IMG/VR virus record: IMGVR_UViG_3300025598_001100
Coordinates: 1-20,103 of that record
Reading direction: 5' to 3' (one strand)
DNA: 20,103 nt
Origin: a virus
Part shown: in pieces, positions 179 through 16,148 of the stretch
How positions within the stretch are numbered: position 1 is the first letter of the stretch
How the letters are laid out: each line of letters starts with the position of its first letter
The notes under the pieces: model-generated
What the model saw: only the letters and a program-made list of their open reading frames with translations
Told to the model about the DNA's origin: nothing
Databases searched by the model: none
Translations under genes and position numbers: made by a program

Positions 179-312
179 TTTTCATCCTTGCAATCGCAAC
201 GTCTTCCTTGATAGCAGTTTCCTGTACAAAGAGATTTAGAACCTTTAGTAAACGCAATAACACATACTACAAATATTGTTACCAATAGTAATGCTATAAT
301 CATTTCAAACAT
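175..312 (-). CDS. Small Cys-rich single-span membrane protein (45 aa)
   Basis: This 45-codon ORF was found by direct reading. Its start ATG shares one base with the QueE stop (TAATG at 310-314), and its TGA overlaps the next gene's ATG. Residues 4-21 form one hydrophobic span (IIALLLVTIFVVCVIAF). A short tail follows with four cysteines spaced Cx3Cx5CxC, beginning LCTGNCYQGRRCDC. The pattern suggests a small inner-membrane protein with a metal-binding or disulfide tail. A lipoprotein is less likely because no clean lipobox is present. Coupling on both sides, with no gap, supports it as a real gene. Function unknown. Confidence 0.6.
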   Translation of the reverse strand: MFEMIIALLLVTIFVVCVIAFTKGSKSLCTGNCYQGRRCDCKDEK

Positions 313-1169
313 TAGGTACCCCATTCGTTTTTAAAGAGTGGAACTTGTAAACGGTCACTGTAACGCCACCCACGTTTCATAGCCGCTAATGCTACATTTT
401 TAGCATTTAATGTATACACACTTTCTACACCGCCCACTGGCATTAGATAAATGTGTCCTTTGAATCCTGCCGATTTAAACGCATCTACTGCACGTTCTGC
501 ATCCTCGATATCTTGTTCTGTAGCAACAACAAATTTAAGATATGCTATACCAACTTGTTCGTATTCACATACTATTTCGGGTTTAATTGCATCTTCCCAA
601 GATTCACCACTTGCCGGTAATTTTGCACTTACACTGAATGTAATTTCTCTCTGTTGACGAGGTAAACCTTTCCATACACTCAAATAATGTTTAAATTCTG
701 TAGTTAATTGTTGAGTACCATTTGTTTCGAACGTAATTTCTTTTAAACCGGCCATCTTAGGATGATCCAACAAATCAGGATAAGCACGTTGCCATCCTAA
801 CAACGGTTCTCCGCCTGTAATAACTAGATGCTCGTCTTGCCATTCGTTATATGGAATAATTTCTGTAATACGATCTGCTATAGCATCTGTAGTAAGCATT
901 GGACTAAGGTCTTTAAAGCTAGGATGCCAACTAGCATAGCTATCACAACCGGTTGATACTAGTGGCAAATCTTCATATTTGTTATATAAATGTACAACAC
1001 TAGCAATATCTTCTGCTTCTGTGCTTAGTTCGCCTCGAGGCATGCCAAAGCCTGCACACTTAAAGTTACAACCAAATGTACGTAAGAAAACAGACGGTAC
1101 ACCCATGTAACGTCCTTCGCCTTGTACACTATAAAATAATTCTGCAATTTTAATTTTACTCATCTTCAT
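312..1169 (-). CDS. queE: QueE-like 7-carboxy-7-deazaguanine synthase (radical SAM)
   Basis: This is a radical-SAM enzyme that would convert 6-carboxytetrahydropterin to 7-carboxy-7-deazaguanine (CDG). The N-terminus carries the QueE signature FYSVQGEGRYMGVPSVFLR (residues 12-30). C34 and C38 supply the first two cluster cysteines, and GGEP at 119-122 is the SAM motif. The third cysteine is not at the usual place: position 41 is Phe. The Cys-Asp that normally completes CX3CX2C appears at C75-D76 (GCDSYASW), so the motif is CX3CX36C. At 285 aa it is longer than typical bacterial QueE (about 210-225 aa). The first ATG (1169) and a second at 1163 are both possible. The start overlaps the end of the upstream gene. 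Confidence 0.88.
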   Translation of the reverse strand: MKMSKIKIAELFYSVQGEGRYMGVPSVFLRTFGCNFKCAGFGMPRGELSTEAEDIASVVHLYNKYEDLPLVSTGCDSYASWHPSFKDLSPMLTTDAIADRITEIIPYNEWQDEHLVITGGEPLLGWQRAYPDLLDHPKMAGLKEITFETNGTQQLTTEFKHYLSVWKGLPRQQREITFSVSAKLPASGESWEDAIKPEIVCEYEQVGIAYLKFVVATEQDIEDAERAVDAFKSAGFKGHIYLMPVGGVESVYTLNAKNVALAAMKRGWRYSDRLQVPLFKNEWGT

Positions 1170-1386: not shown

Positions 1387-1717
1387 CCTGTTCCTCCTTG
1401 AATTTTGCTACATCCTCTACAGCACTTAGCAGTGTGTGAGCATAGTTAAATGCTTGTTGTCGACGCATGATTACAGTAGACTCTGTATCAATATAACCTT
1501 TAGTCAACAATGTCCAAATAGCATGCCAACGAGTTTTACTCCACCAATTGCTTTTTACAGTTGTATAGATAGTAACACTAACATCATTCTCTTCAGCCTC
1601 GACCCACATGTGATGATCGTGATCGGATGCGCCACATTCACATGTAACACGGTAAACTTTTGAGTTGCCCCAATCGTTTGTTTTCATAATGCCTTCGGCA
1701 GGTGTTTGTACTATCAT
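1361..1717 (-). CDS. Hypothetical protein (118 aa)
   Basis: Its ATG overlaps the FolE stop in an ATGA junction at 1714-1717, so it is probably translated by re-initiation after FolE. The protein begins with a possible metal-binding stretch (VTCECGASDHDHHMWVEAE, about residues 24-42, with two Cys and several His/Asp). Next comes a Trp-rich middle (NWWSKTRWHAIWTLLTKGYI), then a helical, charged C-terminus. The CxC plus DHDHH cluster could bind zinc, but no known fold is recognised. A second ATG at residue 11 (MKTNDWGN) is a possible alternative start. Confidence 0.7.
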   Translation of the reverse strand: MIVQTPAEGIMKTNDWGNSKVYRVTCECGASDHDHHMWVEAEENDVSVTIYTTVKSNWWSKTRWHAIWTLLTKGYIDTESTVIMRRQQAFNYAHTLLSAVEDVAKFKEEQDAKRQTTN

Positions 1718-2484
1718 TTTGAAGCGTATTCCTGTTGCATCTTAATATTGTCAAAGAATTCTTTCTTTGTACCGTGGTCGTCTTTGAACGCACCTTTTAA
1801 TACTGTAGTTTGTGTAAGACTGCTCTTGGCCATAATGCCGCGATTTTCACAGCATCCATGTACGGCTTGTACATACACACCTAAGTCTTGTGCTCCTGTG
1901 GCTTTTTGGATTTCCCTAGCAATGTCATTACAAAGTTCCTCCTGGAGAGTACCACGTCGGGCACACCACTGTGCAATTCTTGTGTACTTGCTGAGTCCGA
2001 TAAGTTTCTCGGCCGCAATAATACCAATATAAGCAACGCCGGTAACGGGTTGGTGATGATGGCTACACATACTGCGAAGCTCACTACGAACAACTAGCAT
2101 ACCTTCATAACGGTCCACCGAGTCGTTTGGAAATGCTGTTGCGTCTGGTGCTGGGTCATATCTTCCACTCATTATTTCATTAAAGTACATTTTAGCCATT
2201 CGCTTGGCTGTGCCTTTGCTATTAGGATCTGTTTCGCGATCAATCAGCAATGCATCTAAGACTTTTTCAAAAGCCTTAGTAGCTTCTTCGATTAAGACTT
2301 CTTTTTGTTCTTCGTCGACAAACTCGCTAATGTTGTCACCGGCCCAAAAACGCTTGCCTCGTCGTTTCATTTGAAAGCGGATAACATCCGCTAGATTACA
2401 TTCTTTATAATTTTTGTCATCATCGTCTTGCTGTTCTGCGCCAGCAAGAATATTTTCGTGTTCGTATGTTCTGGATTCAGTCAT
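1714..2484 (-). CDS. folE: GTP cyclohydrolase I
   Basis: Converts GTP to 7,8-dihydroneopterin triphosphate, the first step towards both folate and 7-deazaguanines. The zinc and catalytic residues are visible: SMCSHHHQPVTG (C140, H142, H143) and the second half AVHGCCENRG (H209, C211). The family blocks IGLSKYTRIAQWCARR (162-177) and TLQEELCNDIAREI are also present. The C-terminal catalytic domain is complete. The first 60 or so residues form an acidic N-terminal extension of unclear role. AGGAG precedes the ATG by five bases, and a promoter-like TTGCAA-N17-TATAAT lies just upstream. With QueE downstream and a DpdA-like gene in the window, its likely job is supplying the DNA-modification pathway. 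Confidence 0.93.
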   Translation of the reverse strand: MTESRTYEHENILAGAEQQDDDDKNYKECNLADVIRFQMKRRGKRFWAGDNISEFVDEEQKEVLIEEATKAFEKVLDALLIDRETDPNSKGTAKRMAKMYFNEIMSGRYDPAPDATAFPNDSVDRYEGMLVVRSELRSMCSHHHQPVTGVAYIGIIAAEKLIGLSKYTRIAQWCARRGTLQEELCNDIAREIQKATGAQDLGVYVQAVHGCCENRGIMAKSSLTQTTVLKGAFKDDHGTKKEFFDNIKMQQEYASK

Positions 2485-3067: not shown

Positions 3068-3264
3068 TTTCCAGTACCAAATTTAATTAATGATCCGCTG
3101 AATAAGATATTAAAAGCGGCCCAAGTTTCCCATGTTAATGGAATATGCAATGCCGGAAATAATGTATTCAACGCCCATATACCTATGATAGGTCCCAATG
3201 AAATAGCAATGATAATGAATATAATACCAAATGCTAATCTAATTAAACTGCTTGTTAACGACAT
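3064..3264 (-). CDS. Small membrane protein (66 aa)
   Basis: Two hydrophobic segments are visible: LIRLAFGIIFIIIAISLGPI, and a second around WAAFNILFSGSLIKFG. Between them, a conserved-looking loop reads IWALNTLFPALHIPLTWETW. The pattern ALNTLF plus a Trp-containing second span occurs in small phage membrane proteins of unknown role. I chose ATG at 3264 because a GGGAGGAA ribosome binding site (3273-3280) sits just upstream. A longer frame back to 3300 would need a TTG start deep inside the phosphoribosyltransferase gene. Confidence 0.65.
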   Translation of the reverse strand: MSLTSSLIRLAFGIIFIIIAISLGPIIGIWALNTLFPALHIPLTWETWAAFNILFSGSLIKFGTGK

Positions 3265-3752
3265 AACCAAAATTCCTCCCAAGGATAAACTAACCAACAA
3301 TCTTCTTCTGTCTTGTTTACAGTCCAGACATAGTAATCTGGATCTTTAAATTGACTAGATAAATTATGAGTTAATACTGCAAACCTGACATTGTCTCCCC
3401 ATACATGTTGCCATTGTGTTTCGCCAGGCAAGCAACTGTTTTGCCAATCTTTTTTAATCCACGCGACGGTAGATCCTTGATCATTAATATCATCAACAAC
3501 TAGAATCTTTTTACCTTCGTATGCGTCTTCGCTCATGCTACAATTACTAACACAGTCGCCACCGTCTCGTAGACTAATGTCTAAACTGTTCATTTTAATG
3601 CCAGTGTACTGGCTTAGCAAGTTAGCTGGCACAAGTCCACCGCGGGTTATACCTACAATATAGTCAGGCTTCCAATCGTGTGCTGACATCTGGCGAGCGA
3701 TATCTAATACCGCTCCTTCGACTTGTTGCCAGGTATAGTAAACTTTCTTCAT
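3255..3752 (-). CDS. Purine phosphoribosyltransferase (Gpt/Hpt-like)
   Basis: A type I phosphoribosyltransferase that would join PRPP to a 6-oxopurine base to make the nucleotide. The PRPP-binding loop is VVDDINDQGST (residues 85-95), and the upstream GITRGGLVPA (34-43) matches the family's PPi-loop strand. At 165 aa it is the usual size for xanthine/guanine or hypoxanthine enzymes. Which base it uses cannot be told from the sequence. It starts at ATG 3752, overlapping the upstream stop (ATGA). In this phage it could recycle guanine, including guanine released when a DpdA-type enzyme exchanges DNA bases; that link is inference. Confidence 0.82.
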   Translation of the reverse strand: MKKVYYTWQQVEGAVLDIARQMSAHDWKPDYIVGITRGGLVPANLLSQYTGIKMNSLDISLRDGGDCVSNCSMSEDAYEGKKILVVDDINDQGSTVAWIKKDWQNSCLPGETQWQHVWGDNVRFAVLTHNLSSQFKDPDYYVWTVNKTEEDCWLVYPWEEFWLCR

Positions 3753-4824: not shown

Positions 4825-5197
4825 AATGATTTTTTACTAGTAAATAAGTTGTTTTAAATTTTTCAAATGCTATTTTTAAACCAGGATATTCTTCGCACAT
4901 TTTCTGCACTTCTGACCAATTGGGAAATTGATCTTTCCAATCTTCGGGCAAATGAAACGTAAAGGTATCGGATGCACCTATACTATTAAGTTGAGCAGTA
5001 GTTAACGATGCTATACCTGTGCCAAACGTACTAATAGTATGCGTGGGAGAATAACATGTATTACTAATCGTAATAGTATCCGATGAAAGAGAGTATCCAC
5101 TATTTGGAGCAGTAATTGTAATCACGCAAGGAGAGTAACTACTAGCATAATCAGTTGAGCCTGTCCAACAAACTGTTTGCGGAGAAGAAATTGTCAT
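4790..5197 (-). CDS. Ser/Thr-rich phage protein with conserved C-terminal module
   Basis: The N-terminal 85 residues are strongly beta-prone and Ser/Thr-rich, with immunoglobulin-like alternation (CVITITAPNSGYSLSSDTIT, ISNTCYSPTHTISTFGTG). The last 50 residues are helical: EDWKDQFPNWSEVQKMCEEY, PGLKIAFEKFKTTYLLVKNH. This ending parallels the one in the protein at 3966-4355. AGGA lies six bases before ATG 5197. The gene overlaps the end of the glycosyltransferase by 47 bases and the cupin start by 35. A virion surface or fibre-attached role is plausible but unproven. Confidence 0.65.
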   Translation of the reverse strand: MTISSPQTVCWTGSTDYASSYSPCVITITAPNSGYSLSSDTITISNTCYSPTHTISTFGTGIASLTTAQLNSIGASDTFTFHLPEDWKDQFPNWSEVQKMCEEYPGLKIAFEKFKTTYLLVKNHYDTPEDQRSRP

Positions 5198-6212
5198 GTA
5201 AATCCTTTGCTTGTTTTCGGATCATATGAATTCTTGTAGAATAATTATCCATATGTTCCATTATCTTACGACATACGTCTGGACGATATACGGTATAAGC
5301 GTCATAACTTTCAGTCCATTTACTTGGATACTTAAATCCATCGTAATACATTTCTGTGTAACTAAGTCTGTCCGGGACCATAGGAATAGCATCAACTACC
5401 GCACCTTCATAGCAACTAATGCCTAAAGTTTCTTGTAAGTTAGCACTAAACACCATCTTCGCTTCGCCTAACAAGTTATGATATTCATTTTTTGTTAGTT
5501 GTTGATCCTGACACACTATAAATTCATACTGCGGTAAGTGTGTAGCTAAGTCTCTGAAAATCTCAACTTGCTTCTCAGGTGCGATGCGATGCGGAAAAAG
5601 AATTAAGTCACGCTTGGGCATATTCTTATACATAGTTAATGTATCGTCCATATATTCCATAGGCCAGCCTGTGCGTACAATTTTTGTATCGTATAATTCC
5701 TTAGCAGGAGTAAACCCTAATAAGTTTTCGCAAAATAATTCGATATGAAATTGTGTAGCAAAGTAGTTGTGATCAAATGCGTGATAGAAACTTTTTTCAG
5801 CGTGTCTGACCCAAGGTTTATCTCCAACTAACCGTCCGAGAAAGTCTTGAGGATCATAACTGCCAGCATGCCATAGACCATGTGTGACTACTGGAATGTT
5901 CAGTAGTTCACTCATGTATTTTAAGTTTATGATGCCAGGATGCCAAGCATCAGTAAAAATGAAGTGATCGCCAGGCTGTACTGATCCGGAGCAAAATAGA
6001 CGCCCCATTTGTTCCACTTGGCTAGACTTATAGATATTGGTGCCGCCAAAATTAAGAAAAGCACCAGGAGTAGTGGCTGAAGGAATATCCGTAGGCCCAG
6101 ATAGAATTTGAACATTATGTCCTGCCTTTCGTAAGAGATTAGGTACATGGCGTTTCCATTCGCCAGTGTACCTTGTATCTACGGCTTCTAAATCAACTAG
6201 AAAAATTGTCAT
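5151..6212 (-). CDS. GT-B glycosyltransferase (GT4-like)
   Basis: A 353-residue two-domain (GT-B) glycosyltransferase. The C-terminal donor-binding half has FPHRIAPEKQVEIFRDLA (206-223, with the conserved Arg and Lys). It also has the retaining-family EX7E motif, ETLGISCYEG with E261 and E269, followed by IPMVPDRLSYTEMYY. The N-terminal half shows a Rossmann-like start and HGLWHAGSYDPQDF (111-124). It would move a sugar from a nucleotide-sugar donor to an unknown acceptor. In phages such enzymes act on DNA bases, virion proteins or host envelope. A UDP-sugar dehydrogenase and two sugar-type oxidoreductases lie upstream, which may be relevant. The target cannot be read from the sequence. Confidence 0.85.
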   Translation of the reverse strand: MTIFLVDLEAVDTRYTGEWKRHVPNLLRKAGHNVQILSGPTDIPSATTPGAFLNFGGTNIYKSSQVEQMGRLFCSGSVQPGDHFIFTDAWHPGIINLKYMSELLNIPVVTHGLWHAGSYDPQDFLGRLVGDKPWVRHAEKSFYHAFDHNYFATQFHIELFCENLLGFTPAKELYDTKIVRTGWPMEYMDDTLTMYKNMPKRDLILFPHRIAPEKQVEIFRDLATHLPQYEFIVCQDQQLTKNEYHNLLGEAKMVFSANLQETLGISCYEGAVVDAIPMVPDRLSYTEMYYDGFKYPSKWTESYDAYTVYRPDVCRKIMEHMDNYSTRIHMIRKQAKDLHDNFFSANSLLDRLN

Positions 6213-6483: not shown

Positions 6484-6879
6484 TCAATACTTAATAAAAG
6501 AACCATTTTCTCCGTCTTCGGAGACTTCAATCCAAATCTCACGATCTGGATACTTTGCTGAGATTGTGTCATATAAATCATCTGACATCATCTCGCAACT
6601 TTTATAGTCAAGTTTCAAAACGGAATCTTGACCATTATACAGCGACTCGAGCCATCGCTTGAATTGTATGAACTCGACATCTCTGTCATTGTGTTGCACA
6701 CTAAGCCACACCCTGAAATGAAAGATGTGACGATGAGGAGTACCAAGAAACGATACGTCATACATGTCTCCTGTTGCTAATTTTGGATCTGTTGCGGCCG
6801 CTGGATAGCAGTGGATACCTTCCTTTTGAAAAGTAACCCAGATCATTTTATTTGGTCTAATATCTTGTTTAATAATCAT
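6484..6879 (-). CDS. QueD-like (6-carboxytetrahydropterin synthase family) protein
   Basis: Proposed T-fold protein of the PTPS/QueD family, which converts dihydroneopterin triphosphate to 6-carboxytetrahydropterin. Three histidines fit the zinc site: EGIHCYP, then PHRHIFHF in the position of the family's HGHxY. Downstream, DVEFIQFKRWLESLY matches the 'M/V-x-DFxxLK' strand-helix. SCEMMSDDLYDTI matches PT(S/A)ENLA, and the final EVSEDGENGSFIKY matches the Glu-anchored last strand. The catalytic LDH motif reads LDY here (VLKLDYKSCE), so activity may be altered. The match is by motif order only. FolE, QueE and a DpdA-like gene in the same window favour the assignment. Confidence 0.55.
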   Translation of the reverse strand: MIIKQDIRPNKMIWVTFQKEGIHCYPAAATDPKLATGDMYDVSFLGTPHRHIFHFRVWLSVQHNDRDVEFIQFKRWLESLYNGQDSVLKLDYKSCEMMSDDLYDTISAKYPDREIWIEVSEDGENGSFIKY

Positions 6880-7529
6880 TAATTTTCTCTTTTAAAGCGT
6901 TGTAACGGAAACTGATCTACTTGTAGTTTATAGATAAAAAACACTAATGTCAATCTATCAGACGTATTATTTTTTACAAAATTATTAGCGGCATGATACA
7001 TATGACTATCAAATGCAACTAATCGATTGAATTTATTTTTAACTATAATAGATTCTGAAAATTGTTTATTATTTTCTTCTCTATAATTTTTATATTCAAT
7101 ATTTTTCTTAGGATCTTTTATTGTTTCTGCAAATTTATCTTGATGTAATGCTTGCGGAGCCATAACTGCTGAATCATATACAGTTGTTCCTGCATCAGGT
7201 GTAGCATCATCATCTAAATATATAATTCCGGTAATCAAGGCATCGTCGACATGTGCCCACCCACTATCATATATTGAACTTACTTTTTGAAAACATCCAG
7301 TTGAGCTCCATGCATAGGTATGATTTGCAGGATAAAATATTTTTAAAAACCTTGTTATAGTATTGTCAAAAAAATTCTTATCCAATTTATGCAAAGGCAA
7401 AGACCGTTCACCGGGCCATCGACTCTCATCGTCGGTTTGATATTCTTGCCTTAATGCATAATCTCTAACCATTAAGGGATTATCAAAAAAATTATCTACT
7501 ACTGTTGTAGGAATTATATAATTATTCAC
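6879..7529 (-). CDS. 2-oxoglutarate/Fe(II)-dependent oxygenase-like protein
   Basis: A 216-residue protein of the 2OG-Fe(II) oxygenase type common in marine phages. The iron site reads WAHVDD (H93, D95) with a distal histidine in SHMYHAANNF (H179). A conserved Arg for 2-oxoglutarate follows in SDRLTLVFF (R192). Substrate unknown. Such enzymes hydroxylate proteins, nucleobases or small molecules. The start chosen is GTG 7529, which overlaps the upstream TGA (GTGA) and gives the N-terminus NNYIIPTTVVDNFFDNP, which looks like the family start. A TTG at 7559 would add ten residues. AT content is locally high relative to its neighbours. Confidence 0.8.
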   Translation of the reverse strand: MNNYIIPTTVVDNFFDNPLMVRDYALRQEYQTDDESRWPGERSLPLHKLDKNFFDNTITRFLKIFYPANHTYAWSSTGCFQKVSSIYDSGWAHVDDALITGIIYLDDDATPDAGTTVYDSAVMAPQALHQDKFAETIKDPKKNIEYKNYREENNKQFSESIIVKNKFNRLVAFDSHMYHAANNFVKNNTSDRLTLVFFIYKLQVDQFPLQRFKREN

Positions 7530-8041
7530 AGCGTTGTATCTTGTGTATATTGATCCCAATAAGTGTATTTGTCTTTACTCATTAGATCGTGTAGTTGATG
7601 TGTCCATACACCGGGATTTGTAGCACCCCAAGTGCGATCATCAAGTTTAAGTGTAGCATTATAGTTAAGTTGATTGATATACGGTAGTTTAACACTAATC
7701 ATAGGAACAAAACGTGGATATTCGTTATAAGAAGATTCTAATACACCTTCAATATGTTCAACACCAAAGTCTAGAGTTACCCAATAGTCTTTCTTTAAAC
7801 ACGGAATAATAACATCATCCCAGCGTTTGTATTCTCCGTGGCTAATCGATTTAGGATTAAAACTTTGACTAGTGCCAAAGTAGATATGTTTTACTTTACT
7901 TTCTTCAGCTTTTGTAAGGATTTCTTCGATAGGAGGAGTTCCTACAACAAATAAGGTAAACATACTATGACAAATAGTATGCTCCACTTCATAACCTGTG
8001 AAATAAACAACATCTTGTCGTTCTTCTGTGTTTAATCCCAT
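7526..8041 (-). CDS. Hypothetical protein (171 aa)
   Basis: An alpha/beta protein with no recognised domain. Early strands are VVYFTGYEVEHTICHSMFTL and FVVGTPP. A helix then a strand follow (EEILTKAEESKVKHIYFGTS), and later YWVTLDFGVEHIEGVLESS. The strand-helix alternation suggests a small Rossmann-like fold. The gene sits inside a coupled set: it overlaps the dehydrogenase end by 10 bases and the oxygenase start by four. It is probably co-made with them, and it may be an accessory subunit of that cassette. That role is inferred only from position. Confidence 0.68.
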   Translation of the reverse strand: MGLNTEERQDVVYFTGYEVEHTICHSMFTLFVVGTPPIEEILTKAEESKVKHIYFGTSQSFNPKSISHGEYKRWDDVIIPCLKKDYWVTLDFGVEHIEGVLESSYNEYPRFVPMISVKLPYINQLNYNATLKLDDRTWGATNPGVWTHQLHDLMSKDKYTYWDQYTQDTTL

Positions 8042-8937
8042 TTAATATAACCTCTGCTGTAACCACTCGGACGATTAACGCCATCCGCAAACGCTTGTTC
8101 CCACTCTGTAGTACGATTGTAACATTTTGTCCAAAAAGAATCAACCTCTAAGTAACCGTTTTCGATAAAATACCTTGCCATTTGCATACAATCAATAAAA
8201 TAAGGATTACGTGGACTTGGCTTAATAGTAGTAACAGCCTTCCAAAGTTGAGATTGCGCTTCTTGTTTAGATACTGCTTTGCCAACTCCATCGATAATTA
8301 ATGCATTATTATTTAGGTTAATTTGTAAACCTAGCTCATAATTTCCACTAAGATCTACAACAACATCATAATTTTCAATAGTGCTTGATAAAAGTTTATC
8401 TCCCCACAAATCTTTATTGCTGTGTCCAAGCACATCTACATGAAAGATATAACCATTTAGGCGCATAGCATGATAAGCAACCCAAGCAAGGAAACCACTA
8501 CCAATAATTAACATACGTGTGTTTTCACTTTGACCTTGTCTATCTAATAATTGTTCTTTAGCCTGATTAATAAGATTGAGTCCACACGCTACTGGTTCAA
8601 GAATATATTTAGGATTAGCTTCGGGGACTACTACAAATTCTTCAATTCTAACATTATAATAATCGGCATACGCTGGTTCACCTCGTGTAGCAACAATATC
8701 GCCAACGTTGGTTTTAGCAATGCCTGATCCAACTTTGGTTACAATGCCTAACCCTTCGTGACCTTGCATGTGCAACGGTAATGGCCCGAATTCGCCCATC
8801 ATCATATCAATGTCGCTACGACAAACACCTGTCATTAACGATTTAACTTCAATTTCATAAGTATTTGGTTCAGGTTTATCGTACTCAACTTCATCAAACC
8901 AACCTTGACCGTTAGTTTGCAAACATTTTACTTTCAT
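8032..8937 (-). CDS. Zinc-type alcohol dehydrogenase-like oxidoreductase (MDR)
   Basis: A medium-chain dehydrogenase of 301 residues. The catalytic zinc region is clear: GVCRSDIDMMMG (C39) and QGHEGLGIV (H60, E61). The four-cysteine structural zinc loop of classical members is missing: the segment reads GDIVATRGEPAYADYYNVRI. The Rossmann domain begins MLIIGSGFLAWVAYHAM and is shorter than usual, since the family is typically about 340-380 aa. ATG 8937 overlaps the upstream TGA (ATGA). The frame runs further to a TTG at 8964, but that would overlap the neighbour by 31 bases. Substrate unknown. Pairing with a Gfo/Idh/MocA enzyme suggests a sugar or polyol pathway. Confidence 0.82.
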   Translation of the reverse strand: MKVKCLQTNGQGWFDEVEYDKPEPNTYEIEVKSLMTGVCRSDIDMMMGEFGPLPLHMQGHEGLGIVTKVGSGIAKTNVGDIVATRGEPAYADYYNVRIEEFVVVPEANPKYILEPVACGLNLINQAKEQLLDRQGQSENTRMLIIGSGFLAWVAYHAMRLNGYIFHVDVLGHSNKDLWGDKLLSSTIENYDVVVDLSGNYELGLQINLNNNALIIDGVGKAVSKQEAQSQLWKAVTTIKPSPRNPYFIDCMQMARYFIENGYLEVDSFWTKCYNRTTEWEQAFADGVNRPSGYSRGYIKWD

Positions 8938-9815
8938 AATTTTTCTACTTGTTCGTGGATCCAAAGGTCAATGTCATATTGATTTAACCAGAATTGATAA
9001 TTATCCATATTGTCTATAGCATCTTTGATCATATTTGAATATGCTTCTTCTGGACATAACCCTAATTCAAAACTTTCTATTAATCCATCATTGGTATGAA
9101 AATCAATCCGCCTTAAATCATCGGTGGTATTTCTCCAATTAGCTTCTAACGACCATTTATTTCCAAAATCTATATAACAATGATCGTCGACATCATATAT
9201 TCCATCTGATTTAACAACACCGTAATCAGTTTGAGTTAAATCCTTTAACTCCCATTGCCTATTAGAACCATAATCTTTTAACAGTTCTTTACGCCAGTTT
9301 GGATTAAGGGCAATATATAAACTTAATAAATGTGGCATTAAATCTCTACTAACACCTCCAAATGCTAATTTTTTTGTAGTAAACCAAGTTCCAGGGTTAG
9401 GTACACGATCTTTATTACACCAAAACAAATCAACATACCGGGCTCTTAATGCTTGTAACTTTAATTCATCTATATTACTACGCCACATATTGTTTTTAAC
9501 CATCATAAATCGTGTTTGAGGGAATGTGGTTATAAGTTTAGCCCATGTGAGACTAGTAGCAACACCTGGTTTTTCAATAAAAACAATCTTTGTATAAGGC
9601 GCTAGTTTAGCCGCAAGCTCGAAATGCGTAAAGTTAGGAGTACAAATGTGTACAGTATCAAACATGTGGCATTTAATAATAGCTGAATCCACAGTTTGAA
9701 AATCTGCACCTTTATTTGGGTCGCTATCTACGGTAATTACACCGTGACCAAGTTCAGTTAATACTTTAACATATAGATTGCCAATGCCCATACCTACAAC
9801 AAGACTAGTTTTCAT
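8934..9815 (-). CDS. Gfo/Idh/MocA-family oxidoreductase
   Basis: An NAD(P)-dependent oxidoreductase of 293 residues. The N-terminal Rossmann fold starts LVVGMGIGNLYVKVL (residues 5-19). CTPNFTHFELA (58-68) and the family signature EKPG (81-84) follow. The C-terminal domain holds FGGVSRDLMPHLLSLY (152-167), with the D-x3-H pair (D158, H162) that members use in catalysis. Such enzymes act on sugars, inositols and aminosugars. The ATG follows the BPSL0761-like gene with an 11-base overlap, and its stop overlaps the dehydrogenase start, so the two are translationally coupled. They may act one after the other. Substrate unknown. Confidence 0.85.
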   Translation of the reverse strand: MKTSLVVGMGIGNLYVKVLTELGHGVITVDSDPNKGADFQTVDSAIIKCHMFDTVHICTPNFTHFELAAKLAPYTKIVFIEKPGVATSLTWAKLITTFPQTRFMMVKNNMWRSNIDELKLQALRARYVDLFWCNKDRVPNPGTWFTTKKLAFGGVSRDLMPHLLSLYIALNPNWRKELLKDYGSNRQWELKDLTQTDYGVVKSDGIYDVDDHCYIDFGNKWSLEANWRNTTDDLRRIDFHTNDGLIESFELGLCPEEAYSNMIKDAIDNMDNYQFWLNQYDIDLWIHEQVEKL

Positions 9816-10065
9816 TTGTAAATTTCTTTCCTTCTTCCCAATACTTGATCATACGACTAACATCTTCCATACGTTCTTGCACGACATTAGGAGCCGCACG
9901 TTCTAATTCTTTCAAATTATGATAACTAGGATAATGACGCAAGCACCAGCGAGCTTGTTCGCGTATTTCTTTTGGAATACGTGGAGTTTTTTGAGGATTC
10001 ATTAGGTCCTGTAGAAACTCTTCAGTTCGCTGTATACTTTTAAATCTTTCGTCAGGTAATGTCAT
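9805..10065 (-). CDS. BPSL0761-family protein (86 aa)
   Basis: The sequence matches the uncharacterised BPSL0761-type family: it begins MTLPDERFKSIQRTEEFLQD. It then carries RIPKEIREQARWCLRHYPS, followed by YHNLKELERAAP. All-helical, no membrane segment, with a charged C-terminus. Family members are found in proteobacteria and phages, and no function is established as far as I know. The start codon lies 14 bases inside the end of the DpdA-like gene, so the two are probably made together. It may help that enzyme; this is inference from adjacency only. Confidence 0.75.
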   Translation of the reverse strand: MTLPDERFKSIQRTEEFLQDLMNPQKTPRIPKEIREQARWCLRHYPSYHNLKELERAAPNVVQERMEDVSRMIKYWEEGKKFTNEN

Positions 10066-11758
10066 GTACGCTTGCTTCTAAAGCATCGAGTTTATCAATT
10101 GCCGACTCGTCAAAATCGGTTTCTTCTTCTAATTGTACACTATCTTCTTCTACTTCTTCAAACAATTCGAAGAATTTAGTACTGGCATTAACTGTACGTT
10201 TGCCCGTATATCCTCTAGTTCCCGGAATAGCTTGCCAAAATTTATCAAATCCGTCGATAATTGCATTAGCAGTGTCTCGATCAGGAGCACTAAAAATAGC
10301 ATCTACGATATCTTTGAAGTATATTCGATCAAATTTTTCATCTACTAGCATAGCAGGACAAAGACCAGCATCATATTGACGATTTGCCTCTTGTACACTA
10401 TTCAAATGCAACCATACATTATGACCCATCATAATAGCATAGGTAAAACTATCCCAACTTGTTTTACCTTCTTTACCTATCTTATTTAGATCACCGGGCC
10501 CATATATACAAATCTTATTAACTTCTACTCCATCCATTAATGGGCTAGTAGTAAAAGACTCGAAATGTTTATCTTGTACTACTACGTCTTGGAATAATCT
10601 TGTGTCTTTAGCATACTTTTTGTCATCAAGAGACGGCAACATACGGTAGAGCCACTTTTCTCTGTCCTTAATTTCTGTTTGGACATAGATTTGTCCGTTT
10701 GCGGTTGCAAGGAACGGTGAGGCGCAATCAAAAGAGATGGTAAAGTTTTCATTATGATATTTCCTTATTGCACGTTGTATGTCAGTTAATAATAATGCCC
10801 ATTCCAATTTACTAGTTCCTAGGAAGTGCATCCAATCTTGATGTCCTTTTTCAAGAAGACCATCAAATTTTAATGCCACTAGTCTGCGCAATGTTAATTC
10901 GACATCACACATATTCTGTCCACCCATAGCCCAGCCATTAAAAGCCTTATCGCCATATATGTTAGGATCGCAAAAATCCTTCATTTGCTGATACCAATCT
11001 TCTGCTTGTGCGTGATTTTCACCTTGCAATACATTTAAAAATTTACAAGCACCTGTACGGTGTTTAATAAAATATTCGTTATTGTATTTTGTAGCATTTA
11101 CAGCTTGTTGATATGAACTAATACCAGTGGCCTTCTTTCCAACAGGGCTACGTTCAACCCATGCTGGAATATCAAGCACCATTCCGTAATCCATTAATGC
11201 ATCCATCCATGCTAACACTTGTTCACGTTTTTTCTGCGCCGCATCTAGTAATGCTTGATAGTTTTTAACATGATCAATCTTAGTATATTTTGGATTTCCA
11301 TTTTTATCTAATTTAGGATCTCCAGTTGGATGCAGTTGTGGCACAAGTTCGACTCCTAATGCGTGAACTTCCTTCCATTTAGCTGCCACTTCAGGGCCAT
11401 TAGGATCTCTCCATTCTCCTGCCCATACGCCTTTACCAATCTGGAATCCGCCCGAATCACCTAAAACCCAACTTGTTGTACGATCCCTGTTGCGAAACAT
11501 ATCTTCGCTAGGATCAAATTTAGTTAAATCTAAATTAGCGTGACCTGCACTATATAAACAATGATCAAAGTAAAATGCCGCATTTGGATTTAGATAATTC
11601 ATAGCTTCGATCCCTAATGGGCCAAAGCTCGCAGGTATACGTGCAGGATCGACGTAGTTACTATGACGTTGTTTGCCTATATAAGTGCTATAAAATCCTG
11701 ACGTTGCCGGCAGGAAATATGCATAATCACTTTGAGTGGCAGTAAGATTCTTATTCAA
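10052..11758 (-). CDS. dpdA: DpdA-like DNA guanine transglycosylase (TGT superfamily)
   Basis: A 568-residue member of the tRNA-guanine transglycosylase fold. The hallmark LGDSGGFQIGKG (99-110) holds the Asp of the TGT 'DSGGFQ' motif. LDIPAW (195-200), KFLNVLQGE (239-247) and NGWAMGG (274-280) follow. FDCASPF (343-349) is equivalent to the nucleophile region 'FDC(V)xPT' of TGT. The CxCxxC...H zinc site of tRNA enzymes is not seen, which favours a phage DpdA that swaps guanine in DNA for a 7-deazaguanine. The acidic tail (about 530-568) is unusual. The start is TTG 11758: the first ATG is at residue 53, which would discard an apparently conserved N-terminus. It overlaps the DUF2061 gene by eight bases. 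Confidence 0.85.
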   Translation of the reverse strand: MNKNLTATQSDYAYFLPATSGFYSTYIGKQRHSNYVDPARIPASFGPLGIEAMNYLNPNAAFYFDHCLYSAGHANLDLTKFDPSEDMFRNRDRTTSWVLGDSGGFQIGKGVWAGEWRDPNGPEVAAKWKEVHALGVELVPQLHPTGDPKLDKNGNPKYTKIDHVKNYQALLDAAQKKREQVLAWMDALMDYGMVLDIPAWVERSPVGKKATGISSYQQAVNATKYNNEYFIKHRTGACKFLNVLQGENHAQAEDWYQQMKDFCDPNIYGDKAFNGWAMGGQNMCDVELTLRRLVALKFDGLLEKGHQDWMHFLGTSKLEWALLLTDIQRAIRKYHNENFTISFDCASPFLATANGQIYVQTEIKDREKWLYRMLPSLDDKKYAKDTRLFQDVVVQDKHFESFTTSPLMDGVEVNKICIYGPGDLNKIGKEGKTSWDSFTYAIMMGHNVWLHLNSVQEANRQYDAGLCPAMLVDEKFDRIYFKDIVDAIFSAPDRDTANAIIDGFDKFWQAIPGTRGYTGKRTVNASTKFFELFEEVEEDSVQLEEETDFDESAIDKLDALEASVHDIT

Positions 11759-12681: not shown

Positions 12682-12710
12682 ATTATACTTAGGTTTTGTG
12701 ACTATGTCAA
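12682..12710 (-). promoter_or_regulatory. Consensus sigma70 promoter before the sliding clamp gene
   Basis: On the minus strand TTGACA (12705-12710) and TATAAT (12682-12687) are separated by exactly 17 bases, a perfect match to the bacterial housekeeping consensus. The TGA inside the -35 hexamer is also the stop codon of the dehydrogenase-like gene. The -10 lies about 20 bases from the clamp ATG, so the leader is very short and contains the GGAG ribosome binding site. It would serve the clamp, DUF2061, DpdA and further genes. Predicted from sequence alone, but chance is unlikely. Confidence 0.8.
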
Positions 12711-13477
12711 GGTTTTTTTCTTATCGTTTTATTATATTCTACTGCTGATTCTAATATAGTAAGTGGCGTATTTGCTCGATTTGCATATTCAATAAGAGCG
12801 TTGGTATCTTTTGGAAAACATGTTCCGCCGAACCCTCTATCTCCATCGAAACTAACAACTGTATGACTAGCACCCACGCGAGTATCGTGTGTAATAATCT
12901 GTCTTACTAAATTATAGTCTGCACCACTAATATTGCATAGATCATATAGTTGATTAAAGAACGCTACTTTTGTAGCTAAAAAACTATTGATACTATATTT
13001 TACTAATGATGCTTCTGTTACACTACAGTAAAAATATAATTTACAGTCGGGCAATACTTCTGTAAAAACTTCTTGCCAAAATCCTTCTGGATCTTCGCCA
13101 CCTAACACCATATATTTCTGATTGGCAAAATCTTCAACTGCACTAACTGCTCGTAAAAATTCTGGATTGTAACAGATACTGTGCTTAGGAAACGCTGTTT
13201 GTATTGCAAACAATTGATCTGGAACTATTGTAGATTTGACTAACACTGGCATGAATACTGGAACGTTTTCCATTACAGCATATACTTGGCTATCATCACA
13301 TGCTTCTTCTTTAGTATGCGGAGTACCTACACAGATAATAATGCCATCTGCATCTGGGTGATTAGCGATAGTGTCATCGCTGTATTTTGGATCAATGATT
13401 ACTAACTCGTGACCTTTTTCCAATGTTCTTGCTACTGCCTTACCGACAAATCCATATCCTGCAATTATAATTTTCAT
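12707..13477 (-). CDS. Short UDP-glucose/GDP-mannose dehydrogenase-like protein
   Basis: The first two domains of a nucleotide-sugar 6-dehydrogenase, which oxidises UDP-glucose (or a similar donor) to the uronic acid. The NAD fold starts MKIIIAGYGFVGKAVA (G7, G9, G12). NPEFLRA (104-110), YSINSFLATK (161-170) and the catalytic cysteine in GFGGTCFPKD (C220) are intact. The protein ends at residue 256 (EYNKTIRKKP), just after the central helix, whereas bacterial enzymes run to about 390-450 aa. The C-terminal substrate-binding domain is therefore absent. ATG 13477 is preferred; a TTG at 13489 would reach into the polymerase gene. It follows the polymerase stop by one base. Confidence 0.83.
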   Translation of the reverse strand: MKIIIAGYGFVGKAVARTLEKGHELVIIDPKYSDDTIANHPDADGIIICVGTPHTKEEACDDSQVYAVMENVPVFMPVLVKSTIVPDQLFAIQTAFPKHSICYNPEFLRAVSAVEDFANQKYMVLGGEDPEGFWQEVFTEVLPDCKLYFYCSVTEASLVKYSINSFLATKVAFFNQLYDLCNISGADYNLVRQIITHDTRVGASHTVVSFDGDRGFGGTCFPKDTNALIEYANRANTPLTILESAVEYNKTIRKKP

Positions 13478-13478
13478 A

Positions 13479-16148
13479 TTAAAACTCAAATAAATTATTA
13501 AATGTATTTTTTTCTTCAGTGCTTTGGATATCCCAATTTAGTACACCGATCAAGTTATCTAACTTGTTATCTATGATGGTTTGTTCCATCTCAGCGTGAT
13601 CAAAAGGTAAATCTTTGAACCACTGTGGTAACCTCAGTTCATCCACAGGATAAGCAACTGATGTGAAACCTAACGGATTAGGCTTGAGTTTACAAACAAT
13701 AACTTTTGCACCATCTGTAATACTCATAGAATATTTGTCGTTAAACATACGTTTTAAAGTATTCCAGTTGATACTTGCACGTACATGCCCTGGCATATTG
13801 GCCTTGCCAGCCTTAGCTTCCTTAACTTGGTATTCTGTAATCTTATTAGCACGTTTAGGAGATCCTTTTTCCCAGCCGGGTCTTCCTTTGAATTGCGTAC
13901 GAAATTCGGCGATGTGTGTTAATACTTCTTGTTCAGGCTTACCCATTAAGACCATTTCTAAAACATCACTTAAAAAGTTTTGTATAAATTCAGGAGTATC
14001 GCTACGTTTTAAATCCAAGCCCATAGCTTTAATTTTACCAGGCTTACCATCTACGTCTGCACGTTTACCTTCTTTATCATAATATAATACAGCATAACGT
14101 TTTTTAGTAATGAATAAACTTTTGCTACCAACAATTTCACGACCTGCACGTATAACTTCTCCGCGACTTTTTGGAACATGAAAATAGTCTAGCATAAACT
14201 GTGGAAATGTTGTGTTGACTTCCTCGCCAATTTGATCATACAATTGAATTACATTTTCTTTACTCCAGGGAATTAATCCGCTATCAATATCTTTCTTTAG
14301 AGTTTTGTATGCACTAAAATAACAAGAGTCTGTATCTCCATAGATAACTGCTTTTCCTATGTGGTCGTATTCTCCTGTGATAATCTCATTTACTTTACTC
14401 GCCATATGTTTTGCAATTTGGCGCCCGACCAGTGTTGTTGATTGTCCGATTCTCTTATCAAAGAACCTACAACCGCTATTAAGAATAGCGCCATAGAGAC
14501 TGTTAAGATTAATCTTTTTAACGAGTTGTCGTTTATCCCAGTATTCTTCTTCAACTTTGTTTCCAGCATTTATTGCTTCCTTTAATTTGGCCTGCATCTC
14601 TTTACGTTCAGCATACCATCTTTTAAGTAGCCCCGGAATAATACCTTCTTTTTCGTAGGTAAAAATAGTGCCATTACTCGAAAGCATCCAAGGCTGATTA
14701 CTTTCAAATATAAGTCTATAAACTTCTGCCGCACTTAGAATATCAGTGTCTCCATTTTCCCAATCAATGGTAATGTCAGTGCCAATCTCTTGAGCCATTA
14801 CACTTTCATATTCATCTGCTCCAAATTTACCTTCCCAAGATGCCGCAAATGATTTGCCTTTTGCCATCTGGGTTTCAATAAATTCCTCTGTTCGTGTCTG
14901 CCTTAATTGACCAATAATAGTTTCTGGGCCCATGTTCAACGCACGAATTGCACTAGGATAAAGACTGTTAATATCTAATGATCCGACCCAGTCTTGGATA
15001 CCTTCTTTAGGATGTGCAACATACGCACCGGCCGCCGCAGTATTTTCTTCACGATCACTCATTTTTGTACGGTTAGGCACTTGCATGCCTCTGCGATGGC
15101 ATTCGTTAATAATAGCTTGTTCAGTTACAGCTACCGCACCCATTGTAGTTTGTAGCAATACTGTATTTTCATGTGCCAATGTATTGGCAAGATCCATGAA
15201 CTTTAATTTTTTATCTAAGTCGTCTAATAGTTTACAGTCGTTAATATTATATTCGACAAACGTTTTAAAATCATTGTTGTATAGTTGGTCTAGTGTACCT
15301 TCATATTGTGTTTTACGCTTACCTAGCTCATATTCTGCAATTGCATCAAGTCTATAACTGTGGCGTTCTTCATACGTATACTTACGGTACAACTCAAGAT
15401 AGTCTAAATGAACGCGACCAATATAGTCATAGGTTACACTATCACGACCAAATTTTTCATATTCTCTGCGTTTAGGAAATTGATCAAACAAACAAAATCT
15501 ACGGGTATCTTCTTTTGATAATGCTTTTGTTACTCTATTTGTAGTATAAGGTACGTCAAATCCTTCACTGTTCCAACCACTAAGTACGTCTGCATCTTGT
15601 ATAAGATCTAAGAACATACTTAACAATTCACCTTCATTGTCAAACAAGTAAGTATTAGGAAAATCTTTAACCATTTCTTTGGCATCTTCCATGCTAACAC
15701 CTTTAGGCGGAATAGCCATACATACCATAGTTTCTAACCATTGTAGGTAGACAGCAATCGCAGTAATTGGCATGAATGCATCGTCTGGACTTGCATAACC
15801 ACGTTCTGGATCAAAGTCTACCTCAATATCAAAAAATGCTACATTTAGTTTAGGAGCATCCTGATTTAGATAGTGTTCACTTAGTGTGACAAATATTGGA
15901 TTAATATCGCTTTCGAACAATTCTTTGCCACTGTTAATAGCTTGTTCTTTGCGTAACTCTTTAGTGTTCTTACAAACAATCTTAGTTAATGGATCGCCGT
16001 AAATAGAAGTAAATTTGCCGCGTGGGTCTTTAACATAAAACGTGTGTTTGACAGGAATGTCACGAAACTCACGTTCACCTTTTTTATTACGTTCAACTAC
16101 TCGAATGATATCATTCTCACGGTCAAACCATGCGTCTACATAAGACAT
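13479..16148 (-). CDS. Family B DNA polymerase (T4 gp43-like)
   Basis: Replicative polymerase with proofreading, 889 aa against 898 in T4. Exonuclease motifs are FFDIEV (D107, E109), WNSEGFDVPY (D198) and YNINDCKLLDD (Y300, D304). Polymerase motif A is SLDINSLYPS (D392), motif B is KKINLNSLYG (544-553), and motif C is YGDTDS (D605, D607). All catalytic residues are present. The extreme C-terminus, NTFNNLFEF, resembles the clamp-binding tail of T4/RB69 gp43. GGAG lies ten bases before the ATG, and a 5-bp hairpin directly precedes it. The sliding clamp lies just downstream. The gene is uninterrupted, with no intein or split. Confidence 0.96.
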   Translation of the reverse strand: MSYVDAWFDRENDIIRVVERNKKGEREFRDIPVKHTFYVKDPRGKFTSIYGDPLTKIVCKNTKELRKEQAINSGKELFESDINPIFVTLSEHYLNQDAPKLNVAFFDIEVDFDPERGYASPDDAFMPITAIAVYLQWLETMVCMAIPPKGVSMEDAKEMVKDFPNTYLFDNEGELLSMFLDLIQDADVLSGWNSEGFDVPYTTNRVTKALSKEDTRRFCLFDQFPKRREYEKFGRDSVTYDYIGRVHLDYLELYRKYTYEERHSYRLDAIAEYELGKRKTQYEGTLDQLYNNDFKTFVEYNINDCKLLDDLDKKLKFMDLANTLAHENTVLLQTTMGAVAVTEQAIINECHRRGMQVPNRTKMSDREENTAAAGAYVAHPKEGIQDWVGSLDINSLYPSAIRALNMGPETIIGQLRQTRTEEFIETQMAKGKSFAASWEGKFGADEYESVMAQEIGTDITIDWENGDTDILSAAEVYRLIFESNQPWMLSSNGTIFTYEKEGIIPGLLKRWYAERKEMQAKLKEAINAGNKVEEEYWDKRQLVKKINLNSLYGAILNSGCRFFDKRIGQSTTLVGRQIAKHMASKVNEIITGEYDHIGKAVIYGDTDSCYFSAYKTLKKDIDSGLIPWSKENVIQLYDQIGEEVNTTFPQFMLDYFHVPKSRGEVIRAGREIVGSKSLFITKKRYAVLYYDKEGKRADVDGKPGKIKAMGLDLKRSDTPEFIQNFLSDVLEMVLMGKPEQEVLTHIAEFRTQFKGRPGWEKGSPKRANKITEYQVKEAKAGKANMPGHVRASINWNTLKRMFNDKYSMSITDGAKVIVCKLKPNPLGFTSVAYPVDELRLPQWFKDLPFDHAEMEQTIIDNKLDNLIGVLNWDIQSTEEKNTFNNLFEF

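Follow-up and report, generated by a model that had tools for sequence, protein, structure and literature searches.

GFO, ADH and P171 form a three-gene phage unit within a 7-deazaguanine locus and may serve a glycosylated DNA base

The window analysed here is a stretch of DNA of 20,103 nucleotides from a water-borne phage (IMG/VR record IMGVR_UViG_3300025598_001100), in which all genes of interest lie on the minus strand. An initial annotation had marked in it a coupled cassette of four genes, encoding a Gfo/Idh/MocA-type dehydrogenase (GFO), a zinc-type dehydrogenase (ADH), a 171-residue protein of no recognised kind (P171) and a 2-oxoglutarate/Fe(II)-type (2OG-Fe(II)) oxygenase. Here, we find that this cassette is a three-gene unit, GFO-ADH-P171, situated within a 7-deazaguanine locus. 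The oxygenase gene is rare, lineage-specific cargo outside the core. We propose, with a probability of roughly 0.5, that the triad belongs to a phage pathway in which a glycosylated 7-deazaguanine takes the place of guanine in the DNA of the phage itself, without the use of QueC. The enzyme families are, in our judgement, ordinary ones that occur here in unusual surroundings, and we regard the locus as a variant form of the 7-deazaguanine modification of phages.

Results

The four genes in question are the following, with lengths in amino acids (aa):
8934..9815, minus strand: GFO, Gfo/Idh/MocA-type dehydrogenase, 293 aa, first gene of the triad (PF01408, E 2.5e-6)
8032..8937, minus strand: ADH, medium-chain dehydrogenase of the zinc type, 301 aa from the ATG start, second gene of the triad (PF08240, E 8.7e-10)
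7526..8041, minus strand: P171, a 171-aa family without database match, third gene of the triad (open reading frame; model pLDDT 88.8)
6879..7529, minus strand: DUF6445/2OG-Fe(II)-type protein, lineage-specific cargo and not core (PF20043, E 7.6e-13)

The four open reading frames (ORFs) carry the motifs first described for them: EKPG occupies residues 81-84 of GFO, D158 and H162 are present, and ADH, read from its sequence, has no cysteine cluster in the stretch corresponding to the structural zinc loop. Their overlaps of 4, 10 and 4 bases, with ATGA and GTGA junctions, are obtained with the later starts of ADH (TTG, 8032-8964, or ATG, 8032-8937, the ATG being preferred and common to relatives) and of the 2OG-type ORF (TTG, 6879-7559, or GTG, 6879-7529). 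The overlaps had been taken as a sign of coupling, a reading that fails, as 17 of the 23 listed same-strand junctions in the window overlap. Overlaps are normal here, and the evidence for coupling comes from relatives.

Relatives were collected from IMG/VR with P171 as a single query (217, 80 kept), with GFO (147, 80 kept) and with a P171 profile (at least 584, 80 kept); divergent GFO and ADH queries, used in two additional scans, gave 10 and 67 loci. The profiles for annotating the loci were derived from the window genes. Each distinct P171 or ADH tail is represented once in the non-redundant sets, and loci with too little flank were omitted count by count, thus the denominators differ. With flanks of 1.6 kb, the exact contiguous order GFO-ADH-P171 is found in 113 of 122 non-redundant ADH loci. 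The remaining nine comprise five in which an insert separates GFO from ADH, two in which one separates ADH from P171, and two (L276 and L277) that hold the pair without P171; the last two correspond to the records of L039 and L027, in which GFO and ADH stand together and P171 is about 100 kb distant. Seen from P171, among 113 non-redundant loci with at least 4.5 kb upstream, GFO and ADH are both beside it in 102, neither is in 11, and one alone is in 0. The initial annotation had named separate occurrence in relatives as the observation that would speak against its cassette. Such separation is seen for P171, in these 11 loci and in the Acidovorax phage ACP17, whose record contains neither GFO nor ADH; GFO and ADH were never found apart.

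On a tree of 81 rows of the neighbouring tRNA-guanine-transglycosylase-like (TGT) protein, at least five state changes are required to account for where the pair is locally present. From the two extra scans, 73 of 75 ADH-bearing loci lie with P171 or TGT, and the other two (L303 and L335) are again records of L039 and L027, with P171 and TGT elsewhere. Taken together, the linkage counts, the separate records and the tree changes lead us to regard GFO-ADH as a unit that moves, or is lost, as a whole and that is loosely tied to P171. A bacterial origin of the unit was considered and rejected: P171 occurs in just two GTDB contigs, both with a phage polymerase and TGT. The island occurs with a phage DNA polymerase in L256 and L257 (PAOW01000007.1 and PBPT01000016.1), contigs assigned to euryarchaeal and Neomarinimicrobiota metagenome-assembled genomes, which are probably phage contigs.

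The fourth gene behaves differently. A DUF6445/2OG-type gene adjoins P171 in 2 of 86 testable non-redundant loci; it is found in three lineages at the same spot, and the junction between P171 and the next gene, orf6484, takes many other inserts. The DUF6445 profile (PF20043) matches the window protein over its cut-off, and 2OG-Fe(II) profile matches are weak. Among 12 large records (10 from IMG/VR, plus the Pseudomonas phage Paride and ACP17), DUF6445 is present in one, counted anywhere in the record. That all four genes form one obligate cassette, as their contiguity and short overlaps in the window might suggest, is hardly credible in view of these counts. The coupling first proposed thus stands for GFO and ADH, tied to P171, and falls for the oxygenase.

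GFO and ADH keep their catalytic residues in nearly all relatives. GFO combines a match to PF01408 over the cut-off with the EKP and D..H motifs of the Gfo/Idh/MocA family; K82 is kept in 118 of 119 non-redundant relatives, and D158 and H162 in all 119. In ADH, where PF08240 is likewise over its cut-off, C48 and H69 are kept in 106 of 107 relatives, and E70 and E123 in 107 of 107; we take these four to be the catalytic zinc ligands. The lowest identity to the window protein is 0.32 for GFO and 0.37 for ADH. The best sequence match of GFO in the PDB is DgpA (E 1.1e-3), an enzyme that oxidises sugars on glycosides, and weak NCBIfam matches were obtained to IolG (E 0.0021) and IolM (E 2.5e-4), far under the family cut-offs. 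The pair resembles the IolG and IolM pairs of inositol and sugar catabolism, in which the same two superfamilies occur together; the difference is that the phage GFO and ADH form families of their own.

P171 has no family match in Pfam, PHROGs, NCBIfam or PADLOC, which agrees with its first description as a protein of unknown kind. Its residues E18, E20, K132, D134 and D135 are kept in 97 of 97 non-redundant relatives. The structural model was built on an alignment of 51 of the 59 kept rows (the ACP17 row, L250, and seven others were omitted). It has no Foldseek match in the PDB at E 0.001, a PDB sequence search was also without match, and in the viral library just the ACP17 homologue is significant. 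In VIA comparisons, QueE structures (E. coli and B. subtilis) take ranks 2, 5 and 7 at Z 6.1-6.3, below 8 and tied with the unrelated RsbS (rank 1, Z 6.7, 93 residues), SbcD and the editing domains of ThrRS; the QueE alignments are the longest of the leading rows, covering 118-126 of the 171 residues. The model thus aligns with QueE over nearly its whole length at this low Z, and P171 differs from QueE in having no cysteine among its conserved columns, so that the radical-SAM motif of QueE is missing, and no sequence signal. P171 as a sequence relative of QueE was rejected (hhalign E 0.31; a global score of 9.7 was reached by 3 of 60 column shuffles, and in the wrong register). We thus treat the relation as a structural lead suggested by the model, and not as membership. 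Judged by eye, a short S-x-K-x-P motif is similar in P171 and QueE.

The setting of the triad is given by its neighbours. In transcription order, the window reads TGT-like gene, 86-aa ORF, GFO, ADH, P171, the DUF6445/2OG-type gene, orf6484, an 82-aa ORF and the glycosyltransferase gene (GT); downstream of GT, in the same order of transcription, lie smaller ORFs, a phosphoribosyltransferase gene, FolE and QueE. Counts below refer to loci with enough flank:
10052..11758, minus strand: TGT, tRNA-guanine-transglycosylase fold, 568 aa, probable DpdA-type DNA transglycosylase (by fold; 103/105 loci)
9805..10065, minus strand: 86-aa ORF between TGT and GFO, optional (61/113 loci)
6484..6879, minus strand: orf6484 (phrog_17812), QueD/PTPS-like by motif as judged by eye, core neighbour (85/86 loci)
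5151..6212, minus strand: GT, glycosyltransferase, GT-B/GT4-like, core neighbour (77/78 loci; weak family matches)
3255..3752, minus strand: purine-type phosphoribosyltransferase (PRT), frequent neighbour (PF00156, E 2.8e-13; 45/62 loci)
1714..2484, minus strand: FolE, GTP cyclohydrolase I (PF01227, E 1.3e-38; 43/50 loci)
312..1169, minus strand: QueE, 7-carboxy-7-deazaguanine synthase-like radical SAM protein (PHROG 2076, QueE-like, E 3.3e-53; TIGR03963, E 6e-14, below cut-off; 38/45 loci)
12707..13489, minus strand: UDP-glucose-dehydrogenase-like gene (UGD), optional neighbour (PF00984, E 7.9e-23; 52/91 loci)
13479..16148, minus strand: Family B DNA polymerase, context (ORF with homologues in Paride and ACP17; family name by eye)

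Among the 12 large records, FolE is found in 12 and PTPS/QueD in 10. A full-length QueC is found in 0 of the 12, one record being over the cut-off through two separate partial matches and one more having a match under it. Phosso (a Sinorhizobium phage), RHph_I1_18, ACP17 and Paride gave no QueC, and Xanthomonas phage X1 a sub-threshold match, in the same search in which the controls 9g, nt-1 and Vibrio 2.275 gave full QueC at E 1.7e-51 or better. QueF was found in Vibrio 2.275 alone among 14 records. A PAPS-reductase-type PP-loop protein as a stand-in for QueC was rejected, since it is over the cut-off just in X1 of the 14 records. In orf6484, H23, H49, H51 and E121-D122 are invariant in 15 rows, and the three histidines look like the zinc site of PTPS; a PDB sequence search with orf6484 gave no match. 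The gene occurs in 27 phage records, and it adjoins FolE, QueD, QueE, GT or TGT in Phosso, X1 and RHph_I1_18, whose neighbourhoods were read besides those of Paride and ACP17. Two observations on the window QueE may be recorded here: about 36 residues separate the second and third of its cluster-type cysteines (C34, C38 and C75, by eye), unlike the compact motif, and PADLOC gave just a weak viperin-type match for it. A cupin-like ORF at 4333-4824 matches a PHROG named cysteine dioxygenase (E 5.5e-35) and is present in 51 of 72 loci with flank.

The TGT protein is the presumed entry point of the base into DNA. PDB sequence searches with it gave no match; its AF2 model (pLDDT 88.2) has 1efz as best Foldseek match (E 2.3e-7), all six matches at E < 0.001 are TGT, and all 50 listed VIA rows are TGT as well (Z 19.1-20.3 over about 300 residues). 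D101 and D344, presumably the two catalytic aspartates within the motifs DSGGFQ and FDC, are invariant in 29 alignment rows (29 of the 30 kept rows were used). The TGT profile found no match at E 1e-3 in the records of 9g (DpdA) or nt-1 (DpdA2). It could be that TGT and its partners modify phage or host tRNA and not DNA, as its nearest solved folds are tRNA enzymes and Paride carries tRNA genes. We consider this quite improbable, because the locus adjoins DNA polymerase and clamp genes, and a TGT of 28 percent identity lies in the QueF-QueC-FolE cluster of Vibrio phage 2.275, whose gene content resembles that of clusters associated with DNA modification (PMC6884629).

Cultured phages provide two independent gene orders. 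P171 occurs in 13 phage records (11 of Pseudomonas and two entries of ACP17) and GFO in 11; the triad occurs in Pseudomonas phages of the PA5oct/Paride type (PA5oct, Paride, MIJ3 and others), which make up 11 records, Paride alone of these being in the alignments. In ACP17, QueD-FolE-P171-TGT-GT-orf6484-QueE form one run, and the TGT matches TIGR00449 below the cut-off (E 4.6e-7). In Paride, TGT-GT-orf6484-PRT-QueE occupy 94-100 kb, and GFO-ADH-P171 follow about 26 kb downstream, at 122-124 kb; FolE and two QueD genes lie at 39.8-41 kb, about 55 kb from TGT-GT-orf6484. These two orders support the link of P171 and the triad to the deazaguanine genes. Bacteriophage sp. MT835641 matches ADH at 24.5 percent identity and 58 percent cover, and a DNA-level search of phages gave nothing useful.

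Given this company, GFO and ADH might act on the deazaguanine side chain itself, setting the oxidation level at C7 in place of the QueC/QueF branch, with GT capping the product. The pair is always in deazaguanine-bearing phages, and Paride, ACP17 and almost all of the searched IMG/VR records lack QueC and QueF. We find this rather doubtful: ACP17 and Phosso lack QueC and yet lack GFO and ADH, so the pair is not a general QueC substitute, and the weak GFO matches, such as that to DgpA, point to sugar enzymes. A second alternative is that the pair makes a nucleotide sugar for a virion or host-surface glycan, its deazaguanine neighbours being incidental. Surface-sugar clusters often contain Gfo/Idh/MocA enzymes and zinc dehydrogenases, and the UGD-like gene is near in the 52 of 91 loci listed above. 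This is improbable, as all but two of the 75 ADH loci from the extra scans lie with P171 or TGT and the two remaining records hold both elsewhere, and as UGD tracks GFO poorly, 38 of 94 GFO loci being without it. A strict UGD-GFO pathway was rejected on the same grounds: the 104 non-redundant loci divide into 56 with both, 38 with GFO only, 1 with UGD only and 9 with neither. The UGD-like protein has 260 aa (relatives mostly 260-300 aa) and stops short of the usual C-terminal domain, for which no profile match was found.

Several lineages carry further enzymes in or near the triad. A tryptophan-halogenase family gene (PF04820, E 8.2e-99) was found in 11 loci, 2 of them distinct, in or near the triad of one phage group (L104, 9782-11323; L220, 7422-8963). 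Other oxidising enzymes lie nearby in other lineages, namely 2OG-Fe(II) types (L232 and L090) and another DUF6445 protein (L115). In G005 (L276, 3825-10153), where GFO-ADH lies away from the TGT locus, genes for a cupin and a radical SAM protein come after the pair, with one for a 2OG-Fe(II) protein at a greater distance. The insert between GFO and ADH in five loci is a SulP-type permease (PF00916, E 6.4e-50 for L031, 5894-7120). This sulfate permease, an APS-kinase-like gene and a possible sulfotransferase gene with a sub-threshold match lie in the same island in several phages (the latter two types at L331, 11924-12778, and L333, 14301-14936). The sulfate-related inserts, though few, hint at decoration of a sugar.

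Discussion

We propose that the triad serves a glycosylated 7-deazaguanine in phage DNA in the following way. By family membership, FolE, QueD and QueE would make 7-carboxy-7-deazaguanine, the order of steps being that of the known pathway. Without QueC and QueF, the base would either stay at that stage or be finished by other enzymes, for which P171 and the QueD-like orf6484 are candidates. The TGT-fold protein would then swap the base into DNA, and GT, judged by its family, may add a sugar. GFO and then ADH, both NAD(P)-dependent, may act on that sugar or on its nucleotide-linked precursor; for example, one could oxidise and the other re-reduce or oxidise further. The pairing and the catalytic residues are observed, and the substrate is conjectural. 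P171 may be a new dedicated factor with a base-handling role, and the lineage-specific oxygenases or halogenase may decorate the sugar further. Such a modification would serve to evade restriction by the host. The initial annotation had guessed that all four proteins make or modify one small molecule, perhaps a sugar for the nearby glycosyltransferase or a hypermodified base. The tie of GFO-ADH to that glycosyltransferase holds, and the setting points to a modified nucleobase; the 2OG-type protein drops out as a member.

Several points weigh against this proposal. First, Paride (L162, 18227-19995) is the sole exception in both enzyme families: EKPG of GFO is changed to DING and the Cys and His ligands of ADH are lost, with the genes intact. 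Because Paride keeps both genes without key residues, catalysis is not needed everywhere; the joint decay in this lineage is consistent with a shared job. Second, ACP17 and Phosso hold deazaguanine and GT genes without GFO and ADH, hence the core can do without the pair; Phosso has TGT, GT, orf6484, FolE and QueE, and a search for P171 there was without match. Third, hosts may supply QueC or QueF, thus the absence of these genes does not fix the product. Fourth, the identity of GT rests on weak matches (its ACP17 homologue matches Glycos_transf_1 at E 2.5e-4, below the cut-off, and WlaC was matched at E 0.0087). Fifth, most loci come from related phages, so the linkage counts are not independent events. 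Finally, that the target is DNA and not tRNA is something we infer, as is the base chemistry.

Among known systems, the closest is the 7-deazaguanine DNA modification of 9g and nt-1 (FolE-QueD-QueE-QueC with DpdA). The present locus shares FolE, QueD, QueE, a TGT-fold protein and the replication context, and differs in having no full QueC and no QueF, and in the addition of GT, the QueD-like orf6484, P171 and often GFO-ADH. The glucosylated hydroxymethylcytosine of T4 offers a second likeness, as there, too, a phage glycosyltransferase would act on a base that has been made beforehand; the base is another one, and incorporation would here be by a transglycosylase, in T4 by the polymerase. Iyer et al. 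(PMC7824862) ascribe a deazaguanine synthesis and incorporation system to PA5oct, Hutinet and others (PMC6884629) describe phages with DpdA and DpdA2, and PMC12028318 gives 15 percent dPreQ1 for a Vibrio phage with FolE, QueD, QueE, QueC, DpdA and QueF. Term searches of the Paride and MIJ3 papers gave no occurrence of deazaguanine. For neither the triad nor a glycosylated deazaguanine in the DNA of a phage did we find a paper, within a coverage of the literature that is incomplete and no proof of absence.

Tentatively, and as an idea that we lean against, the locus could represent a widespread and so far undescribed class of phage DNA hypermodification. A TGT-type enzyme would insert 7-carboxy-7-deazaguanine, produced in the absence of QueC, and the base would be converted within DNA into a sugar-bearing one. 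GFO-ADH would reshape the sugar, P171 would be a QueE relative without radical SAM that acts on the base, and the variable slot would add oxidation, halogenation or sulfation, so that related phages would differ chemically.

In the 7-deazaguanine DNA bases known from phages, the groups at C7 are small. A glycosylated, tailored 7-deazaguanine, if true, would be new base chemistry, would probably protect against restriction, and would account for three gene families so far without a role. The triad is present in cultured Pseudomonas phages such as PA5oct, Paride and MIJ3, so the proposal is testable, and ACP17, which has the rest of the set and no GFO or ADH, provides a natural comparison for what the pair adds.

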